This document shows, in pieces, positions 11,360 to 36,032 of a stretch of 64,000 nt of DNA (within the stretch, counting starts at the first letter, position 1; each line of letters begins with the position of its first letter). This DNA is from Pararhodospirillum photometricum DSM 122. GTDB lineage: Bacteria; Pseudomonadota; Alphaproteobacteria; Rhodospirillales; Rhodospirillaceae. The stretch covers positions 789,124 to 853,123 of the forward strand of contig NC_017059.1 of the NCBI RefSeq assembly GCF_000284415.1. Reading direction: 5' to 3'. A program made the translations under genes and the position numbers. The notes under the pieces were generated by a model, which had not been told where the DNA came from, did not search any database, and saw only the letters and a list, made by a program, of their open reading frames with translations.

Positions 11360-11438
11360 CGCCGTTTCCTCCCGTTTGCGCCGGGTGGTGATTACGGCAG
11401 AGCGCGGGCCAGGGCAAGCGCGGGCATACAGGGAAGGT

Positions 11439-11469
11439 GGGGTCTGGGGAGGCCGCGCCTCCCCAGCCT
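11439..11469 (-). repeat. 33-bp hairpin repeat, copy 11
   Basis: In the gap between the divergent cobL and coiled-coil genes, where it ends no gene. It lacks the usual first GA. Confidence 0.8.
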
Positions 11470-11583
11470 GTTTCTTTTCGTCTTTGCCCCGCCAGAAGCC
11501 CCAGTCACCCGATTGCCCTGGGGCCGCCGTTGCGTTCCAAGACGGAGCGCCCCATCATAGCGGTGTCAGGGAGGATCCTGCTC

Positions 11584-12114
11584 ATGAACGCCATCGGCCT
11601 CGATACCCACGCTTACGTCAAGCGCATGACCGCCACCGGCATGGCAGAAGCGCAAGCCGAGGTCGTGACGGCCCTCATCCGTGAAGCCCAACAGATCTCG
11701 ACCAGCGACCTCGCCACCAAGGCGGATCTCGCGCAGGCGACCACCGTCCTGCGCACAGAGATCGCTCAGGTCACGACCGAACTGCGCGCCGAGATCGCCC
11801 AGACCACCGCCGACCTGCGCGCCGAAATTGCTCAGAGCACCGTCGATCTCCGTGCCGAGATCGCTCAGGTCTCAACCGACCTGCGTGCCGAGATCACCCA
11901 AACCAGATCAAACTTGCGCGATCAGATTGCCGCCACCAACACCCGGATCACGACGGAGATGGCGGAAACCCGCGCCAGCGTCAAAGTCGAGATTGCCGAA
12001 GCCAAGGCCGACATTTTGAAGTGGATGGTCGGCATGATCTTCGGCGCGGTCTTGATCAACGCCGGCGTTGTCTTGGGCGGCATGCTGGGACTGGCCAAGC
12101 TCCTCCAGCCCTAA
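11584..12114 (+). CDS. coiled-coil protein with 11-residue repeats and a C-terminal membrane anchor
   Basis: A 176-residue protein resembling the bacterial DUF1640/CCDC90-like group. From about residue 55 to 150 it consists of consecutive 11-residue units of the form AQxTxDLRAEI, mirrored by 33-bp DNA repeats that diverge gradually. An 11-residue period favours a nearly straight or right-handed coiled coil. Residues about 152-172 (MIFGAVLINAGVVLGGMLGL) form a hydrophobic tail anchor, so the coil probably projects from a membrane. The ATG at 11584 follows AGGGAGGAT; in-frame sequence upstream is repeat-derived. Function unknown. Divergent from cobL. Confidence 0.8.
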   Translation: MNAIGLDTHAYVKRMTATGMAEAQAEVVTALIREAQQISTSDLATKADLAQATTVLRTEIAQVTTELRAEIAQTTADLRAEIAQSTVDLRAEIAQVSTDLRAEITQTRSNLRDQIAATNTRITTEMAETRASVKVEIAEAKADILKWMVGMIFGAVLINAGVVLGGMLGLAKLLQP

Positions 12115-15234: not shown

Positions 15235-15854
15235 CGGTTGCCCGCGACCTCCTCGACCTTGACCCTGCCCTGCCCCTGAGCGATCGGGTGCGCCGCGTGT
15301 GGTTCGCCCCGGACGGCAGCCCCCGCCCCTGGTGGTTCACCCCGGCCGACACCGTGGACGCGGTGCTCATCGCCCTGTTCAGCAAAGACACCGGCCTCGC
15401 CCTCACCGGCGCCCATGACGCTCTGCGGGCCACTCCCGAAGGCGCCCTAGCCTTGCTCATCTTGCTCGATGCCCTGCCCCGACGCCTGTGGGCCGGCCAC
15501 GACAAGGCCAGCGCCGGCAACGCGGCGGCCCGCGCCTTGGTGATCGACAGCCTCCGCCAGGGCCACGATCGGCATTGGCCCCCGGCCGGACGCCTGCTGG
15601 CCGGCCTGTGCTTCCTGCGCAGCCCCGACCCCATCGACCAGGAACGCGGCTTCGCCCTGGTAGACGCCTTGGGGCGCCCGGATTGGCTCGCTTGGGCGTT
15701 GCAAAAAGGAAAGGCTGGGGAGGCTCGCCTCCCCAGCCTTAACTTTCCGGGCACTCCGCCGGGGAAAGCCCCCCCCCTTTCACCCCTCAGCGCGTCAAAA
15801 TACCCCGCGCCACCACCTGCGCCTGAATCTCCGCCGCGCCCTCGAAAATATTGA
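15231..15854 (+). CDS. DUF924 family protein, C-terminus replaced
   Basis: The first about 158 residues match DUF924 (TPR-like, unknown function): a divergent FW-like start, TPEGALALLILLDALPRRLW and SPDPIDQERGFALVDAL. DUF924 proteins normally finish with a segment containing HRDVIARFGRFPHRN; this is absent. Instead the frame enters hairpin repeat copy 15 and runs through low-complexity proline-rich sequence to 15854, overlapping the 3' end of mcd by 68 bases tail to tail. The gene therefore looks truncated at its 3' end by a rearrangement at the repeat and is probably non-functional. The start overlaps the upstream gene by four bases. Confidence 0.75.
   Translation: MTVARDLLDLDPALPLSDRVRRVWFAPDGSPRPWWFTPADTVDAVLIALFSKDTGLALTGAHDALRATPEGALALLILLDALPRRLWAGHDKASAGNAAARALVIDSLRQGHDRHWPPAGRLLAGLCFLRSPDPIDQERGFALVDALGRPDWLAWALQKGKAGEARLPSLNFPGTPPGKAPPLSPLSASKYPAPPPAPESPPRPRKY
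15711..15740. repeat. 33-bp hairpin repeat, copy 15 (symmetric)
   Basis: Fully symmetric version: AAGGCTGGGGAGG and its exact complement around a short centre, with AAGG and CCTT on both ends. It lies inside the reading frame of the truncated DUF924 gene. Confidence 0.85.
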
Positions 15855-17478
15855 GAATACGTGCGTCGCACAGCAGGCGGCTGATGGTATATTCCTCGGC
15901 GTAGCCGTTGCCGCCGTGGATCTGCAAGGCGTTGTCGGCATTGCTCCAGGCAACGCGAGCCGCCAGCAGCTTGGCCATGCCGGCCTCGATGTCGCAGCGC
16001 AGATCGCTGTCCTTTTCGCGACCGGCGAAGTAGGTCAACTGGCGCGCCACCATGGTTTCCACCACCATCCACGCCAGCTTGCCGTGCACGCGCGGGAAGG
16101 CAAACAGCGCCTTGCCGAACTGCTGGCGCTCCTGGGCATAGCGCAGGCCGGTCTCCAGGGCGCTTTGGGCCACGCCCACCGCCCGGGCCGCCGTTTGGAT
16201 GCGGGCACTCTCGAAGGTGGCCATCAACTGCTTGAAGCCCTGGCCCTCAACGCCGCCCAACAGCGCCGACGCCGGCACCCGGAAGCCATCGAAGCCCAGT
16301 TCGTATTCCTTCATGCCGCGATAGCCCAGCACCTTGATCTCACCGCCGGTCATGCCCTCGGCCGGGAACGGCTCGGCCTCGGTGCCGCGCGGCTTTTCGG
16401 CCAGCAGCATCGACAGGCCCTTGTAGCCCGGCTCGTCCGGGTTGGTGCGCACCAACAGGGTCATCAGGTCGGAGCGCGCGGCGTGGGTGATCCAGGTCTT
16501 GGAGCCCGTGACCACATAGTCCTCGCCGTCGCGCACCGCCCGGGTACGCAGCGAGGCCAGATCGGAGCCGGTGTTGGGCTCGGTGAACACGGCGGTCGGC
16601 AGAATCTGGCCGGTGGCCAGCAGGGGCAGATAGTGCTGCTTTTGCTCCTCGGTGCCGCCGAGACGGATCAGCTCGGCCGCGATTTCCGAGCGGGTGCCCA
16701 GCGAGCCCACGCCGATGTAGCCGCGCGACAACTCCTCGGTCACCACGCACATCGCCATCTTGCCCATGCCTAAGCCGCCGTAGGCCTCGGGCACGGTCAG
16801 GCCGAACACGCCCAGCTCGGCCATCTGCTCGACGACCTCCAGCGGGATCAGCTCGTCGCGCAGGTGCCAGCCGTGGCAATGGGGCATCACCTGCTCTTCG
16901 GCAAAGCGCCGGAACTGGTCGCGCACCAGAACCAAGGTCTCGTCATCAAGGCCGAGATCGCCAAAGTGGCCGTCTTGCGCCAACTCTGCCAGCCGCGCCT
17001 TGACCGCCTCGGTAAAGCCGTGCTCACGCAACAAAGTGGTGTAGGGGCTTTGCAGCAGGTGACGCTCGCGCACCTCAATGCCAAAGTCGGCCAAGCGCAC
17101 GAACTCGCTTTGGCTCATCGGCAGGCCGCCGTAAATCTGGTGCAGGTATTCGGAGTAGGACGCCTGCAAGATCAGGCATTCCAGTTCGCCCAGGCGATCG
17201 GTCGCCTCAAGACGGCGCGCCCACTCCAGCATGCACGACAGCGCGGTCACGTAGGTGGCGAACCAAGCGAGGCCGTGCACCGCATATTGGTGCTGCTCCA
17301 GAGCCTCGGCATCGAGCTTGCCGTTGACGCTGACCATTTTCGTGACGTTCTCGCGGATCACGATCAACGTCTGGTTGGCGGTCTGGTAAGCCCGTTCACA
17401 GGTGTACAACAGATCCTGCAACACCAGCGGGAACACCGGCTGGGAGGAGGAAGCCTTAACCTTGGTCGCTGCGCTCAT
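15787..17478 (-). CDS. mcd: (2S)-methylsuccinyl-CoA dehydrogenase
   Basis: Flavin enzyme of the ethylmalonyl-CoA pathway, oxidising methylsuccinyl-CoA to mesaconyl-CoA and passing electrons to ETF. At 563 residues it is longer than ordinary acyl-CoA dehydrogenases (about 380). The extra N-terminal helical region (about 1-160) is the mark of Mcd. The dehydrogenase core begins about 175, with TVPEAYGGLGMG, FTEPNTGSDLAS, TGSKTWITHA, the ERQQFGKALFAFPRVHGK arginine/flavin region and QIHGGNGYAEEY. The neighbouring ccr gene supports the assignment over a general fatty-acid enzyme. Transcribed after ccr in the same direction, with a hairpin repeat between. Confidence 0.93.
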   Translation of the reverse strand: MSAATKVKASSSQPVFPLVLQDLLYTCERAYQTANQTLIVIRENVTKMVSVNGKLDAEALEQHQYAVHGLAWFATYVTALSCMLEWARRLEATDRLGELECLILQASYSEYLHQIYGGLPMSQSEFVRLADFGIEVRERHLLQSPYTTLLREHGFTEAVKARLAELAQDGHFGDLGLDDETLVLVRDQFRRFAEEQVMPHCHGWHLRDELIPLEVVEQMAELGVFGLTVPEAYGGLGMGKMAMCVVTEELSRGYIGVGSLGTRSEIAAELIRLGGTEEQKQHYLPLLATGQILPTAVFTEPNTGSDLASLRTRAVRDGEDYVVTGSKTWITHAARSDLMTLLVRTNPDEPGYKGLSMLLAEKPRGTEAEPFPAEGMTGGEIKVLGYRGMKEYELGFDGFRVPASALLGGVEGQGFKQLMATFESARIQTAARAVGVAQSALETGLRYAQERQQFGKALFAFPRVHGKLAWMVVETMVARQLTYFAGREKDSDLRCDIEAGMAKLLAARVAWSNADNALQIHGGNGYAEEYTISRLLCDARILNIFEGAAEIQAQVVARGILTR

Positions 17479-17516
17479 GCTGGAAACGTCCCTGAATGAA
17501 GAAGGAGGAGGAAGGG

Positions 17517-17550
17517 AAGGCTGGGGAGGCGGGGCCTCCCCAGACCCCTC
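17517..17550 (+). repeat. 33-bp hairpin repeat, copy 16
   Basis: Between ccr and mcd. On the minus strand it is followed by TTCCCTTCC, weakly terminator-like, so mcd may be partly uncoupled from ccr. Confidence 0.85.
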
Positions 17551-17596
17551 CGTCCCGGGAGTTTGGTTCGGTCTGAAGACCTGAGCGTTTGGGGGG

Positions 17597-18878
17597 TTAG
17601 CCCTCGCGGCAGTCTTCCAGGGTGCGCCGGCCGGGGCGCTTGGCCTGGACAAGCACCGCCATGTTGCCGGGCTTGTGCAGGTTGCGCAGCATCTTCGGTG
17701 TGCGCCTTGGGGATGTCATCCCACGAGAAGACTTCGCTCATGCACGGGTCAATCCGCCGCTCGACCACCAGTTGGTTGGCTTGGCTCGCCTGCAACAGGT
17801 TGGCAAAGTGGCTGCCCTGAATGCGCTTTTGCCGCATCCACACAAAGCGGGCATCAAAGGTCAGGTTAAAGCCCGTGGTGCCGGCGCAGAACACCACCAT
17901 GCCGCCGCGCTTAACCACGTTGCACGACACCGGGAAGGTCTGCTCGCCCGGGTGCTCGAAGACGAAATCGACATCGTTGCCCTTGCCGGTGATGTCCCAG
18001 ATCGCCTTGCCGAACTTGCGCACTTCCTTCATGTAGTCGCCAAAGCCCTCGCCGTTGACCTTGGGCAACTGGCCCCAGCAGTTGAAGTCCTGGCGGTTGA
18101 GAACGCCCTTGGCCCCCAGGCTCATCACGAAGTCGCGCTTGCTCTCGTCGGAAATCACGCCGATCGCATTGGCGCCCGCCGTGGCGCACAACTGCACCGC
18201 CATCGAGCCCAGACCGCCCGAGGCGCCCCACACCAAAACGTTATGGCCGGGCCGCAGAACGTGCGGGCGGTGGCCGAACAGCATGCGGTAGGCCGTCGCC
18301 AACACCAGGACGTAACAGGCGCTCTCCTCCCAGGTCAGGTGACGCGGCCGCGTCATCAACTGGCGCGACTGCACCCGGGTGAACTGGCCAAACGAGCCGT
18401 CCGCGGTCTCGTAGCCCCAAATGCGCTGGCTGGGCGAGAACATCGGATCGCCGCCGTTGCACTCCTCGTCGTCGCCGTCGTCCTGATTGCAGTGGACCAC
18501 CACCTCGTCGCCGACCTTCCAGCGCGTGACCTTGGACCCCACCGCCCACACGATGCCCGCCGCATCCGAGCCCGCGATGTGGTAGGGCGCCTTGTGCACG
18601 TCGAACGGGCTGATCGGCTGGCCCAAGCCGGCCCAGATCCCGTTGTAGTTGACGCCAGCCGCCATCACCATCACGAGAACGTCGTGGCTGTCCAGCACCG
18701 GGGTCTCCACGACCTCAAGCTGGAACGACTTCTCCGGCTCGCCGTGACGTTCGCGCCGGATCACCCAGGCGTACATGGTTTTGGGCACATGGCCGAGCGG
18801 CGGGATCTCCCCCAACTCATAGAGATCCTTGCGCGTTTCGTCGGCGTTCGAAACCAGGGAAAGAGCCTCTGCGGCCAT
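17597..18878 (-). CDS. ccr: crotonyl-CoA carboxylase/reductase, frameshifted near the 3' end
   Basis: Reductive carboxylation of crotonyl-CoA to ethylmalonyl-CoA with NADPH and CO2, the key step of the ethylmalonyl-CoA pathway. Very close to known Ccr: KDLYELGEIPPLGHVPK, NQDDGDDEECNGGDPMFSP, the NADPH fold GASGGLGS, and RRIDPCMSEVF. The expected ending (KMLRNLHKPGNMAVLVQAKR...) is encoded in a second frame. One extra base around 17696 moves the frame at AHT, and the uninterrupted frame instead ends at 17475. Restoring it gives a stop at 17597 and 426 residues, the normal size. This is either a sequencing error or a real late frameshift. The ATG at 18878 has AGGAG nine bases upstream. Confidence 0.93.
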
Positions 18879-19137
18879 GCTCGTCATCTCCTGTTCCATC
18901 TCGGGAGGGGCAGAGGGGCGGCGTCCTGGCGCGTGGGGCCCCATCCCGGTTTGGCTTTCGTTGCACGCCCTCTGGACGTCCTGGAGTCACAGATAGCGAA
19001 TGCGCCCTTTCACTGCAATGCACAAAATGATAGTTTCTTGCGTAGGGATAATAGGTTCGGTAATTTTAATTCAGTAAACCGCCCTCTGGAACCGGATAAC
19101 CCCCGGCCTCGGGGGCGCCCCCACCAAGGAGACGACC
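18879..19137. promoter_or_regulatory. divergent control region between ccr and ecm
   Basis: About 260 bases separate the divergent ccr-mcd and ecm genes. The centre (about 19000-19075) is markedly AT-richer than its surroundings. It contains TGCAATGCA (about 19012), a short palindrome inside CACTGCAATGCACAAA. Promoters for both sides are expected here, but I cannot assign exact -35/-10 boxes or a named regulator. Confidence 0.4.
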
Positions 19138-22100
19138 ATGACCGACAGGCCCGTTGCCCCCGTCCCTGCCGCCCAGACCCGCGACAAACCTTGGCTTTTT
19201 CGGACCTACTCGGGCCATTCGTCGGCCAAGGCGTCCAACGCGCTCTATCGAACGAATCTTGCGCGGGGCCAGACCGGCCTCTCGGTCGCCTTCGACCTGC
19301 CCACCCAAACCGGCTACGACAGCGACCACGTGCTGGCCACCGGCGAGGTCGGCAAGGTCGGGGTGCCCCTGTGTCATTTAGGCGATATGATGACCCTTTT
19401 CGATGGCATCCCCCTCGAAAAGATGAACACCTCGATGACCATCAACGCCCCGGCGCCCTGGCTGCTGGCGCTCTACATCGCCGCCGCCGAACGCCAAGGG
19501 GCGTCGCGCGCCGCCTTGCAAGGCACGGTGCAAAACGACCTCATCAAGGAATACCTCAGTCGCGGCACCTACATCTTCCCGCCGCAACCCAGCGTGCGCC
19601 TGATCAACGACGTCATCGCCTTCACCTACCGCGAGGTTCCCAAGTGGAACCCGACCAACGTGTGCTCCTACCACCTCCAGGAAGCCGGCGCGACCCCGGA
19701 GCAGGAACTCGCCTACGCCCTGGCCACCGCCATCGCCGTGCTGGATGCCGTGCGCGCCGGCGGGCAGGTGCCGCCGGCCGAGTTCCCCCAGGTGGTCGGC
19801 CGCATCAGCTTTTTCGTGAACGCGGGCATTCGCTTCGTCACCGAGTTGTGTAAAATGCGCGCCTTCACCGAGCTGTGGGACGAAATCTGCCGCGAGCGCT
19901 ACGGGGTCGAAGACGAGGCCTACCGTCGCTTCCGCTACGGCGTCCAGGTCAACAGCCTGGGGTTGACCGAGCCCCAGCCGGAAAACAACGTCTACCGCAT
20001 CTTGCTGGAAATGCTCTCGGTCGTGCTCTCCAAAAACGCCCGCGCCCGCGCCGTCCAGCTCCCCGCCTGGAACGAAGCCCTCGGCCTGCCCCGGCCCTGG
20101 GACCAGCAATGGTCCTTGCGCCTGCAACAGATCGTTGCCTACGAAACAGACCTGCTCGAATACGGCGATCTGTTCGACGGCTCCCCCGTTGTCGCCGCCA
20201 AGGTCGAGGCCCTCAAGGACGGCGCCCGCGCCGAACTGGCCCACATTGAGGCCATGGGCGGCGCCATTGCCGCCGTCGAATCGGGCTACATGAAGCGCCG
20301 CCTCGTCGAGTCGAACTCGGCCCGCCTCGCCGCCATCGAAAGCGGCGAGCAGATCGTGGTCGGCGTCAACAAGTTCACCGAAGCCGCCCCCAGCCCCCTC
20401 ACCGCCGGCGACGGCGCCATCATGACCGTCGATCCGGCCGTGGAACGCGACCAGATCGCCTCCCTCGTCGCCTGGCGCCAAAGCCGCGACGCCGCTAAGG
20501 TCGCCGAGACCCTCGCCGCCCTGCGCCGTGCCGCCGCCGACGGCAGCAACATCATGGAACCCACCATCGCCTGCGCCCACGCCGGCGTCACCACCGGCGA
20601 GTGGTCCCAGACTCTGCGCGACGTCTTCGGCGAATTCCGCGCCCCCACCGGCGGCCCGGCCGCGCTCGATCGCCGCTTGGCCCTGATCGGCGTGGTGGCC
20701 GATGCCGACACCGCCCAGGCCTTGCAAGCCTCATTGCAGCCCGGCCAACGGCTGGTCGATCCCGAGGGCGGCCTGTGGCGCTGGGACGGTCTGGTGCGCC
20801 GGCCCGAAGCCCAGGACGGCGCCGCCGCCGCCCGCCTGGAAACCCGGCGCCGGCTGGCCGATCTGGAAGAAGCCATCAACGAGGCCGAGGAGCGTCTGGC
20901 CCTGGCCCGCGCCGAGGCCCAGATCCAGCGGGACCGTCAGGACACCCTGGCCAGCGCGGAACGCGAGGCCCGCGACGCCCTGCGGGCTGCGGATCGGGCG
21001 GCGAGCGAGGCCCGCAGCCGTCTTGCCGCCCTGGAGCGCGACGCCGCCGCGGCGGCCAGCCGTCTGGCCGGGCTCGATGACGCCCTGGCCCAGGCCGACG
21101 CCGACCGCGAAGAAGCCGAGACCCAGGTCCTGGAGAGCGAGGCGGCCCTAGACACCCTGGGCGACGCGCCGCCAACCCAGGCCGAGGCCGAAAGCCTGCG
21201 CACCGACCTCGCCCGGGCCCGCAGCGCCCAGGTGAGCGCCCAGGCGGAGCACGACCGCCTGCGCCGCGAGACTGAGGAGATCCGCCGGCAGCTCGACGCC
21301 CTGCTGCGCGACGAAACCTCCTGGAAAGGCCGTCAGGCCGAGGCCCTGGCCCAAGCCGAGGAATTGGAAGGACGCCAGCAGACGGCCGAGGAGGCCCTGG
21401 AGGATCTGGCCGGCCGGCCCGAGGCCCTGGCCGAGCAGCGCGAGGTTCTGAGCCAAGCCCTGGAAGACGCCGAGATCGAGCGCCGCGCCGCCGCCGACGC
21501 CCTGGTCGAGGGCGAACGCGCCGCCCGCGCCGCCGACAAAGCCCTGCGCGACATCGAACGCGGCGAGGCCCAGGCGCGCGAAGGGCTGGTGCGAGCCGAG
21601 GCCAGCGTGGAGGCGGCGCGGGCCGAGTGCCGCACGGTCGCCACCACCATTGCCGAAAAACGCGACTGCACCCCCGAAGCCCTGGCCGCCGACCTGCCCG
21701 ATGACGCTTCCCTCCCCCCCCTGGCCGAGGCCGAAACGGCGCTGGCCCAGGTGTTGCGCGAACGCGACGCCCTGGGGCCGGTCAACCTGCGCGCCGAGCA
21801 AGAGGCGCGCGAGTTGGAGGAGCAGGTCAGCACCCTGACCTTGGAGCGCGACGATCTGGTGGCGGCCATTGCCCGCTTGCGCCAGGGCATCAACGAACTC
21901 AACAAGGAGGGCCGGGCGCGGCTGCTGGAGTCGTTTCGGCAAGTGGACCAGCACTTCCAGGGCCTGTTCCAGCGCCTGTTTGGCGGCGGGCGGGCCCATT
22001 TGACCCTGGTCGAGGCCGAAGATCCCCTGGAGGCCGGCTTGGAGATCATGGCCAGCCCGCCCGGCAAGCGGCTGCAAAGCCTGTCCTTGCTGTCGGGCGG

Positions 22101-22395
22101 CGAGCAGGCCCTGACGGCCACCGCCTTGTTGTTTGCCGTGTTCTTGACCAACCCGGCGCCGATCTGCGTGCTCGACGAAGTGGACGCCCCCCTTGACGAC
22201 GCTAACGTGGATCGCTTTTGCACCATGCTGCGCGAATTGACCGACACCACCCGGACCCGCTTCCTGGTGGTGACCCATCACCGGATGACCATGGCGCGCA
22301 TGGATCGGCTGTTTGGTGTGACCATGGCCGAGCGCGGGGTGTCATCGCTGGTGTCGGTGGACCTGCGCCGGGCGGCCGATCTGGTGGAAAACTGA
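19138..22395 (+). CDS. chimera: ethylmalonyl-CoA mutase N-terminal part fused in frame to SMC C-terminal half
   Basis: Residues 1 to about 505 are ethylmalonyl-CoA mutase: RTYSGHSSAKASNALY, FDLPTQTGYDSDH, MNTSMTINAPAPWLLALY and ending GVTTGEWSQTLRDVFGEFRAPTG. The following B12-binding domain (DxHxxG) is missing. From about 506 the sequence is chromosome-partition protein SMC: the end of the hinge (RRLALIGVVADADTAQAL), about 350 residues of coiled coil, then the ABC signature LSLLSGGEQAL (about 985) and Walker B CVLDEVDAPLDD. SMC's N-terminal Walker A half and first coil are absent. Neither enzyme can work as drawn. The junction lies near 20650. The start ATG at 19138 is preceded by AAGGAG. 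It is either a real deletion fusing two genes or an assembly join. Divergent from ccr. Confidence 0.9.
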   Translation: MTDRPVAPVPAAQTRDKPWLFRTYSGHSSAKASNALYRTNLARGQTGLSVAFDLPTQTGYDSDHVLATGEVGKVGVPLCHLGDMMTLFDGIPLEKMNTSMTINAPAPWLLALYIAAAERQGASRAALQGTVQNDLIKEYLSRGTYIFPPQPSVRLINDVIAFTYREVPKWNPTNVCSYHLQEAGATPEQELAYALATAIAVLDAVRAGGQVPPAEFPQVVGRISFFVNAGIRFVTELCKMRAFTELWDEICRERYGVEDEAYRRFRYGVQVNSLGLTEPQPENNVYRILLEMLSVVLSKNARARAVQLPAWNEALGLPRPWDQQWSLRLQQIVAYETDLLEYGDLFDGSPVVAAKVEALKDGARAELAHIEAMGGAIAAVESGYMKRRLVESNSARLAAIESGEQIVVGVNKFTEAAPSPLTAGDGAIMTVDPAVERDQIASLVAWRQSRDAAKVAETLAALRRAAADGSNIMEPTIACAHAGVTTGEWSQTLRDVFGEFRAPTGGPAALDRRLALIGVVADADTAQALQASLQPGQRLVDPEGGLWRWDGLVRRPEAQDGAAAARLETRRRLADLEEAINEAEERLALARAEAQIQRDRQDTLASAEREARDALRAADRAASEARSRLAALERDAAAAASRLAGLDDALAQADADREEAETQVLESEAALDTLGDAPPTQAEAESLRTDLARARSAQVSAQAEHDRLRRETEEIRRQLDALLRDETSWKGRQAEALAQAEELEGRQQTAEEALEDLAGRPEALAEQREVLSQALEDAEIERRAAADALVEGERAARAADKALRDIERGEAQAREGLVRAEASVEAARAECRTVATTIAEKRDCTPEALAADLPDDASLPPLAEAETALAQVLRERDALGPVNLRAEQEARELEEQVSTLTLERDDLVAAIARLRQGINELNKEGRARLLESFRQVDQHFQGLFQRLFGGGRAHLTLVEAEDPLEAGLEIMASPPGKRLQSLSLLSGGEQALTATALLFAVFLTNPAPICVLDEVDAPLDDANVDRFCTMLRELTDTTRTRFLVVTHHRMTMARMDRLFGVTMAERGVSSLVSVDLRRAADLVEN

Positions 22396-22513: not shown

Positions 22514-23875
22514 ATGACGACCTCTTATGATTACGATCTGATTGTCATTGGGGCCGGGTCCGGCGGTGTGCGCGCGGCACGGGTGGCGGGAAGCTATGGG
22601 GCCCGGGTCGCCCTGATCGAAAGCAGCCGCGTCGGCGGAACCTGCGTCATGCGCGGTTGCGTGCCGAAAAAGCTGCTGGTCTACGGCGCCCACTACGCCC
22701 ACGACCTCGCCGACATGGCCGGCTATGGCTGGTCGGTCAAGGAAGCCGCCTTCGACTGGCCGGCCCTGATCGCCGCCAAGAACCGCGAGTTGGAGCGCCT
22801 GGAAACCGTCTATCGTTCCTTGCTCAAGACCAGCCGGGTCACGTTGATCGAAGGCCACGGTCGCCTTGTTGATCCGTTCACGGTCGATGTGGATGGCAAG
22901 CGGCTGACCGGCGAAAAGATCCTGATCTCGGTGGGCGGCTGGCCGAGCATGCCGGCGATTCCCGGCATCGAGCACGCCATCACCTCCAACGAGGCCCTTG
23001 ACCTGATGATCTTGCCCCGGCGGATTATCATCGTGGGCGGCGGCTATATTGCGGTGGAATTTGCCGGGCTGTTCCGCGCCTTTGGCGCCGAAGTCACCTT
23101 GGTGATTCGCAAGGACAAGATCCTGCGCGGCTTTGACGAGGATGTCCGCGACGCCCTGACCGCCGAGATGACCCGCCAGGGCATCACCATTCTCAGCGAA
23201 ACCCAGATCGCCCGCATCGACAAACTGGCCGATGGCTCCTACCGCGTGCGCCGCACCCCGGGGCCCGACATGGACGCCGATCTGGTCATGTACGCCACCG
23301 GTCGCGCCCCCAACACCTCGGGCCTCGGCCTGGAAGACGTGGGCGTGCGCGTTGATGCCAGCGGCGCCATCCCGGTGGACGAGTGGCACACCACCAATAT
23401 CCCCAGCATCTTCGCCGTGGGCGACGTGACAGGCCGGGTCGAACTGACCCCGGTCGCCCTCAACGAAGGCCTGAACTTCGCCGAGACCCAGTTCAACGAC
23501 AACCCCCGGGTCATGGACTACGACCTGATCCCCTCGGCCGTCTTCAGCCACCCGACCATCGGCACCGTCGGCCTGACCGAGGCCCAGGCCCGGGCACGCG
23601 GCCCCGTGCGCATTTTCCGCTCACGCTTTCGCCCCATGCGCCACACCCTCTCGGGCCGCGAGGAGCAAACGCTGGTCAAACTGGTGGTCGATGCCCGGAC
23701 CGACCGCGTGCTGGGCTGCCACATGGTCGGCGCTGATGCCCCGGAGATTATTCAGGGCCTCGCCGTGGCCTTGCGCTGTGGCGCGACCAAGGCCCAGTTC
23801 GACGCCACCTTGGGGGTCCACCCGACGGCGGCCGAGGAATTTGTCACGATGCGTCAACCTGTTCCCGAGCCCTAA
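22514..23875 (+). CDS. gor: glutathione-disulfide reductase
   Basis: Reduces oxidised glutathione with NADPH; cytosolic flavoprotein, 453 residues. FAD-binding GAGSGG at the N-terminus, redox-active disulfide Cys44/Cys49 in GGTCVMRGCVPKK, NADPH domain GGGYIAVEFAG, and the C-terminal GVHPTAAEEF with the catalytic His-Glu pair. Arg residues after the NADPH-fold strand (TLVIRKDKILRGFD) favour NADPH. RBS AAAGGAAC precedes the ATG. It stands alone, followed by a hairpin repeat. Confidence 0.95.
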   Translation: MTTSYDYDLIVIGAGSGGVRAARVAGSYGARVALIESSRVGGTCVMRGCVPKKLLVYGAHYAHDLADMAGYGWSVKEAAFDWPALIAAKNRELERLETVYRSLLKTSRVTLIEGHGRLVDPFTVDVDGKRLTGEKILISVGGWPSMPAIPGIEHAITSNEALDLMILPRRIIIVGGGYIAVEFAGLFRAFGAEVTLVIRKDKILRGFDEDVRDALTAEMTRQGITILSETQIARIDKLADGSYRVRRTPGPDMDADLVMYATGRAPNTSGLGLEDVGVRVDASGAIPVDEWHTTNIPSIFAVGDVTGRVELTPVALNEGLNFAETQFNDNPRVMDYDLIPSAVFSHPTIGTVGLTEAQARARGPVRIFRSRFRPMRHTLSGREEQTLVKLVVDARTDRVLGCHMVGADAPEIIQGLAVALRCGATKAQFDATLGVHPTAAEEFVTMRQPVPEP

Positions 23876-34670: not shown

Positions 34671-36023
34671 TCACTGGGGCAGGCCGGCAAGCCGCGCCCG
34701 TCCCCGCTCGGAACCGATCAGGGGCAGCAAGGTCGCCATGTCGGGGCCGTGATCCACCCCGGTCAGGGCCAAGCGCAGTGGCTTGAACAAGGCCCGGCCC
34801 GACCGCCCGCTCGTGGTCTTAAGCGCCTTGGTCCAGGTGCTCCAGGTCGTGGCGTCCCAAGGCGCTGGGGGCAGCAGGGCCAACGCCTCGGCCAGGAACC
34901 CCTGATCGGCCTCGTCGATCACCGGGGCGATGGGGCCCTCAATCACCTGACGCCAAAGCCCGACATCGGCCGGGCAGGTCAGGTTGGCCTGAATGGCCTG
35001 CCAAAGCGTGGGATCGCTCACCAACCCCCGGGCCTCGGCCGTGGCGAAGGGCAAAGTGTGCAAAACCCGGGCGCTCAGGCGCTCCAGTTCGGCCGGATCC
35101 AGGCGCGGCGAGGCCCGGCCATAGGCCTCCACCCGGAAATGCTGGGCCAGTGTCGCCAGATCGTGGGTCGGATCCGGGGCCTCGCCGGTGCCCAGGGCAG
35201 CGAGCAGGGCGTTGATGGCCTCGGGCTGGATTCCCTGGGCGCGCAGATCGGCCACCGCCAGGGCGCCATCGCGCTTGGACAACGGCCCGCCCTCAGCGCC
35301 CAGCACCAAGGGAAAATGCCCCCAGGCCGGTGGCGTGCCATCCAGAGCGCGGGCGATCTGGATTTGCACCGCCGTGTTGACCACGTGGTCCTCGCCACGC
35401 AACACGTGAGTCACGCCAAAGTCGAGATCATCAACCACCGAGGGCAGGGTGTAGAGCAGCCCGCCATCCTCGCGCACCACCACCGGATCGGACAGGTGGG
35501 CGCCGTGGTAATGGCAGGGGCCGCGCACCAGATCGGTCCACTGAATGTCCACGTGATCGAGCAAGAAGCGCCAGTGCGGCCGCCGGCCCGCCGCCTCCAA
35601 GGCGGCCCGCTCGTCGGCGCCCAGAGCCAGGGCGGCCCGGTCATAGACCGGTGGCAGGCCGCGCTGACGCTGGCGCCGACGCCGGAATTCCAGTTCCTCG
35701 GGGGTCTCGTAGCAGGGATAAAGCCGCCCCGCCCGGCGCAACTGGTCGAGCGCCTCGGCATGGCGGGCGGCACGGGCCAGTTGGCTTTCCTCGCGGTCCC
35801 AGGTCAGGCCCAGCCACGTCAGGTCCTCGCGGATCCCTTGGGCCAGGGCCGCCGAGCCGCGCGCCGTGTCGGTGTCGTCCATGCGCAAGATCAGGGACCC
35901 GCCCTGGGCCAGCGCGAACAAGGCATTGATCACGGCAACGCGCACGTTACCCAGATGCAAGCGCCCGGTGGGCGAGGGGGCAAAGCGGACGACCACCGCC
36001 CCAGAGGAAGAATCAAGAACCAT
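34671..36023 (-). CDS. gltX: glutamyl-tRNA synthetase (second-type GltX)
   Basis: Class I synthetase of 450 residues that charges tRNA-Glu and, in organisms with GatCAB, often tRNA-Gln. [20 protein letters not shown] contains the HIGH-type motif (HLGN). [10 protein letters not shown] follows, and LSKRDGA is the KMSKS equivalent. Many alphaproteobacteria carry two paralogues; this one sits between nadE and cysS. The ATG at 36023 is 10 bases after the nadE stop; a GTG at 36032 would overlap that stop. Probably co-transcribed with both neighbours. Confidence 0.93.
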
Positions 36024-36032
36024 GACGGGCAC

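Follow-up and report, generated by a model that had tools for sequence, protein, structure and literature searches.

The misjoining of contigs in a draft assembly can create chimeric open reading frames. In such chimeras, split gene halves carry identical overlapping ends and are flanked, as far as the cut, by their ancestral neighbours. In the chain of junctions to which the locus of Pararhodospirillum photometricum DSM 122 described here belongs, the first trait is seen in four of five cut genes and the second in six of ten halves; the locus differs in that one of its junctions is in frame and hence gives it the look of a fusion protein. The two proteins involved are (2R)-ethylmalonyl-CoA mutase (Ecm, MeaA) and the bacterial SMC protein (TIGR02168), for which the closest among the matches listed were those of P. 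oryzae (P0002, 90% identity, and P0122, 67%); no second assembly of the species appeared among the best 120 matches to each part. Residues 1 to about 505 of the chimera are about 90% identical to P0002 and residues 506-1085 are 67% identical to P0122, and the adjoining genes, ccr on the Ecm side and gor on the SMC side, are the same in both species. Unlike Ecm, however, the chimeric frame has no B12 domain, which sits at 166.4 kb of the contig, and unlike SMC it has no Walker A half, which sits at 1101.3-1103.0 kb. A literature search retrieved no paper on misassembly in P. photometricum or on ethylmalonyl-CoA mutase together with SMC, and in the portions of the literature on spurious fusions that surfaced, only yeast and plant mitochondria were treated.

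The window, that is, the whole stretch of 64,000 nucleotides that was analysed (contig NC_017059.1, positions 789,124 to 853,123), contains an open reading frame of 1085 codons at 19138..22395 (+) that starts with ATG and has no internal stop; positions below 64,000 are those of the window, and larger ones, or those in kb, are those of the same contig (G000:C1). A family scan matched Pfam MM_CoA_mutase (PF01642) to residues 13-498, reaching the end of the profile, and the Pfam scan found no B12-binding domain in the frame, in agreement with the first-pass annotation, which had taken residues 1 to about 505 for the mutase domain of Ecm without its B12 domain. This ecm 5' part (19138..20653, +) shows 89% identity to P. 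oryzae Ecm (residues 1-510). Further on, chimera residues 503-1076 correspond to positions 613-1181 of the 1181-position NCBIfam model TIGR02168 (SMC_prok_B), and no match to positions 1-612, the N-terminal Walker A half, was obtained within the frame, so that each partner is indeed without its other half, as had been claimed. The smc 3' part occupies 20651..22395 (+), as indicated by TIGR02168 and by DNA match, and we take signature and Walker B to be the motifs of this C-terminal half. The earlier reading of SMC from the hinge onward, starting near residue 506, stands for the C-terminal half and needs a small correction at the hinge: since the model match starts at 613 and the other half ends at 568-595, the cut lies in the middle of SMC and does not coincide with the beginning of a whole hinge. 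This middle is presumably the hinge region, although the Pfam scan reported no hinge domain in the chimera.

By DNA comparison, the switch from ecm to smc falls at 20651..20653 (+; junction J1), the sequence being exactly that of ecm up to 20653 and exactly that of smc from 20651. Positions 20500-20800 have a GC content of 74%, against 65% window-wide, which bears out the earlier remark that the junction near 20650 is GC-rich, and the 3 bp compatible with both genes are, in our judgement, about what chance would give in such sequence. The frame is therefore confirmed as a real open frame, in which the mutase domain of Ecm runs without a shift of phase into the C-terminal half of SMC.

Both missing halves, for which a search of the rest of the genome had been proposed, were found on this one contig. 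With full-length P. oryzae Ecm as query, Ecm residues 388-673 were located at 166421-167278 (-), and this displaced piece (166.4-167.3 kb) contains the B12-binding domain (PF02310, TIGR00640) in a family scan. The two ecm pieces share a duplicated segment, 20315..20653 (+) being identical over 339 bp to 166921-167259 (-); the exact match stops at 20653 in the window, and at the other place the sequence continues beyond the copy into the B12 domain. A second, diverged copy of ecm was considered and rejected, as the 339 bp are identical in both places and the match has abrupt limits on either side. With full-length P. oryzae SMC as query, residues 1-595 were located at 1101297-1103099 (+), a half that matches positions 2-568 of the SMC model, and its end at 1103023-1103040 is identical over 18 bp to the beginning of the smc piece in the window (20651-20668).

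On the ecm side of the frame, ccr (17475..18944, -), encoding crotonyl-CoA carboxylase/reductase, and an acyl-CoA dehydrogenase gene (15787..17652, -), which by its context we take to be methylsuccinyl-CoA dehydrogenase, stand in the same order as in P. oryzae, and so does the glutathione reductase gene gor (22514..23875, +) on the smc side. The ccr gene carries a frameshift near its 3' end (about 17600-17700, -), its conserved tail (NMAVLVQAKRPG...) lying in a different frame, which may be a sequencing error or real.

When the partners of the displaced halves were traced, one junction led to the next, at least six in all, and five genes proved to be cut (ecm, smc, DUF4175, SPOR and helicase). 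At 167259/167260 the ecm C half meets a DUF4175 gene that lacks its beginning and runs from about residue 216 onward; its N part lies at 1076948-1077625, adjoins secA and overlaps the other part by 31 identical bp (167260-167290 and 1077582-1077612). What this DUF4175 N part meets, from 1077613 onward, is the C-terminal portion of a gene with a SPOR domain. The N part of that gene, at 3288829-3289506 (-), leads on into sequence that precedes an HPr-kinase gene; a comparison with P. oryzae, made partly by eye, suggests that the two SPOR pieces together lack about 18-25 residues (about 55-75 bp). At 1103040 the smc N half gives way to a helicase gene on the opposite strand, of which this place has the N part; the helicase remainder, with a peptide deformylase gene upstream of it, begins at 1601901 and has 87 bp in common with the N part (one N scored as a match). 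Exact overlaps are thus present in four of the five cut genes (ecm 339, smc 18, DUF4175 31 and helicase 87 bp), the SPOR gene showing a gap, and the codon phase of the overlap is identical in both halves of all four. At the three joins that were checkable base by base, the two sides have 3, 1 and 0 bp in common.

Two further features of this record were observed along the chain. A second in-frame chimera, in which the N part of the SPOR gene reads into the HPr-kinase gene, is present in stretch L185 (8163-9527, -). Directly beside junction J4, at about 1601820-1601895 (stretch L141, 9820-9895), lies an inverted repeat with perfect arms of 23 bp and a 2 bp loop, which is longer if a difference of one base within a C/G run is tolerated.

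The genome also harbors a dispersed palindromic element of about 46 bp (core CTGGGGAGGC..GCCTCCCCAG), often next to a T-rich run and terminator-like by eye. It is present in 27 copies in the window (for instance at 897, 1683, 10084, 25275 and 45313) and in 60 copies in 263 kb of stretches examined elsewhere in the genome, compared to two in 569 kb of P. oryzae and none in the 9-14 kb loci of five relatives, which looks like a species-level expansion. Recombination at such repeats is unsupported, given joins that share 3, 1 and 0 bp and a closest copy 0.8-2.9 kb away from each of the six junctions. Another repeat of the window is a 33 bp in-frame tandem repeat (11722-11919, +) within ORF 11437-12111.

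Six of the ten gene halves have the same neighbour as in P. oryzae, namely acyl-CoA dehydrogenase/ccr for ecm-N, gor for smc-C, a DsbA-like gene for smc-N, secA for DUF4175-N, a gene that we take to be pseudouridine synthase-like for SPOR-N, and the following gene for helicase-C. The ecm-C, helicase-N and SPOR-C halves stand outside these matches, the P. oryzae contigs ending close to the cut, and for DUF4175-C a conserved neighbour was not found, the P. oryzae ORFs downstream of DUF4175 matching none of the DSM 122 stretches compared.

Undiverged overlaps of 18-339 bp, joins devoid of homology, cut genes that remain open and, for most halves that could be compared, ancestral neighbours kept as far as the cut are what is expected of misordered draft contigs that end inside genes and overlap by no more than roughly one read length. 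With the missing halves on the same contig, the exact overlaps and the six-junction chain, they point to the fusion being very probably an artefact of an assembly in which draft contigs were falsely joined, one of the two explanations that the first-pass annotation had favoured. Some draft contigs would have had their ends within genes and would, for the most part, have overlapped their true next contig by 18-339 bp; misplaced in order and orientation, they would then have been strung together into a single sequence. The join at 20651-20653 would be one where a contig that ends in ecm was placed against a contig that starts in smc, the frame staying open by chance. The scrambling would lie in the assembly and not in the chromosome, and the cell itself most likely has an intact ecm and, separate from it, an intact smc. 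Against such a misjoin speak the limited spread of cut genes, as seen in the window genes scanned and in the three P. oryzae stretches described below, the gap in the SPOR gene, the DUF4175-C half deprived of a conserved neighbour, and the state of the record, a single contig of 3,876,289 bases (3.88 Mb) with 100% completeness.

In favour of a misjoin, this record has draft-like flaws, namely the ccr frameshift and 26 non-ACGT letters in the 263 kb of genome stretches examined, and the genome of strain DSM 122 was published as a "shotgun genome sequence", according to its title as cited elsewhere (PMC7714858). Among 20 window genes scanned, 14 matched a family over most of the model length, three had partial matches (ccr up to position 377 of 398, gltX up to 320 of 470, and a chemotaxis protein to part of its model), and three had no family match at E 1e-20. 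The match of gltX (34674-36032, -) is limited to positions 2-320 of the 470-position model, which may reflect a divergent C-terminus or another flaw.

The main alternative to contig misjoining is that the chromosome of the sequenced culture really was broken and rejoined at several places very recently, staggered ends having duplicated 18-339 bp at the cuts. The same sequence facts, that is, the presence of all these halves, the identical overlaps and the joins without homology, fit such an event, and the lineage does rearrange, since gene order is much changed relative to P. oryzae between genes as well (three 20 kb stretches); by DNA match, in which only well-conserved genes are visible, no further evident cut genes were seen in these three P. 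oryzae stretches. However, at least five genes including smc and ecm would have to be cut at once with no later divergence, and four exact overlaps of this size would be natural for contig ends but unusual for breaks. We therefore regard a recent rearrangement as very improbable, and likewise the picture that would follow from it, a type-strain culture that lives without an intact smc or ecm after a fresh, homology-free shuffling of its chromosome in which five genes were cut, six or more joins were made and short ends were duplicated.

The second favoured explanation of the first-pass annotation, a deletion in the strain between linked ecm and smc genes, has nothing on its side except the fusion itself. 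It is refuted by the presence of both supposedly lost halves on the same contig, and the genes are unlinked in all 15 relatives in which an Ecm orthologue of at least 70% identity and an SMC match were both readable. The two genes, whose proximity in close relatives had been put forward as a check, are not neighbours there, being on different contigs in 14 of these 15 relatives (with SMC only in fragments in four of the 14, namely G025, G036, G037 and G039) and separated by 442 kb in G040, a genome in one contig. A deletion of this kind is accordingly rejected, its probability being close to nil.

A search of 41 genomes, including that of DSM 122 itself, found no place matching across both parts of the chimera in any of the 40 relatives. 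In the genome collection, the matches in the 80 loci listed, out of 584 confirmed, all end by chimera residue 539. No fusion was seen among the best 120 of 8000 scored homologues of either part, those of the Ecm part being 618-680 residues long and those of the SMC part 749-1216 residues and without a mutase domain. A real, selected bifunctional protein, which had already been ranked last and which could invoke only a frame that stays open through 1085 codons, is thus hardly conceivable, each part being without the half that it needs and the fusion being absent from those relatives and homologues.

At such joins, inferences on gene order or fusion proteins that are drawn from the P. photometricum record are unreliable. 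A chain of identical end overlaps provides a simple check, which could reveal the remaining joins from sequence alone. As for the biology of the organism, smc and ecm should be scored neither as broken nor as fused in P. photometricum DSM 122.
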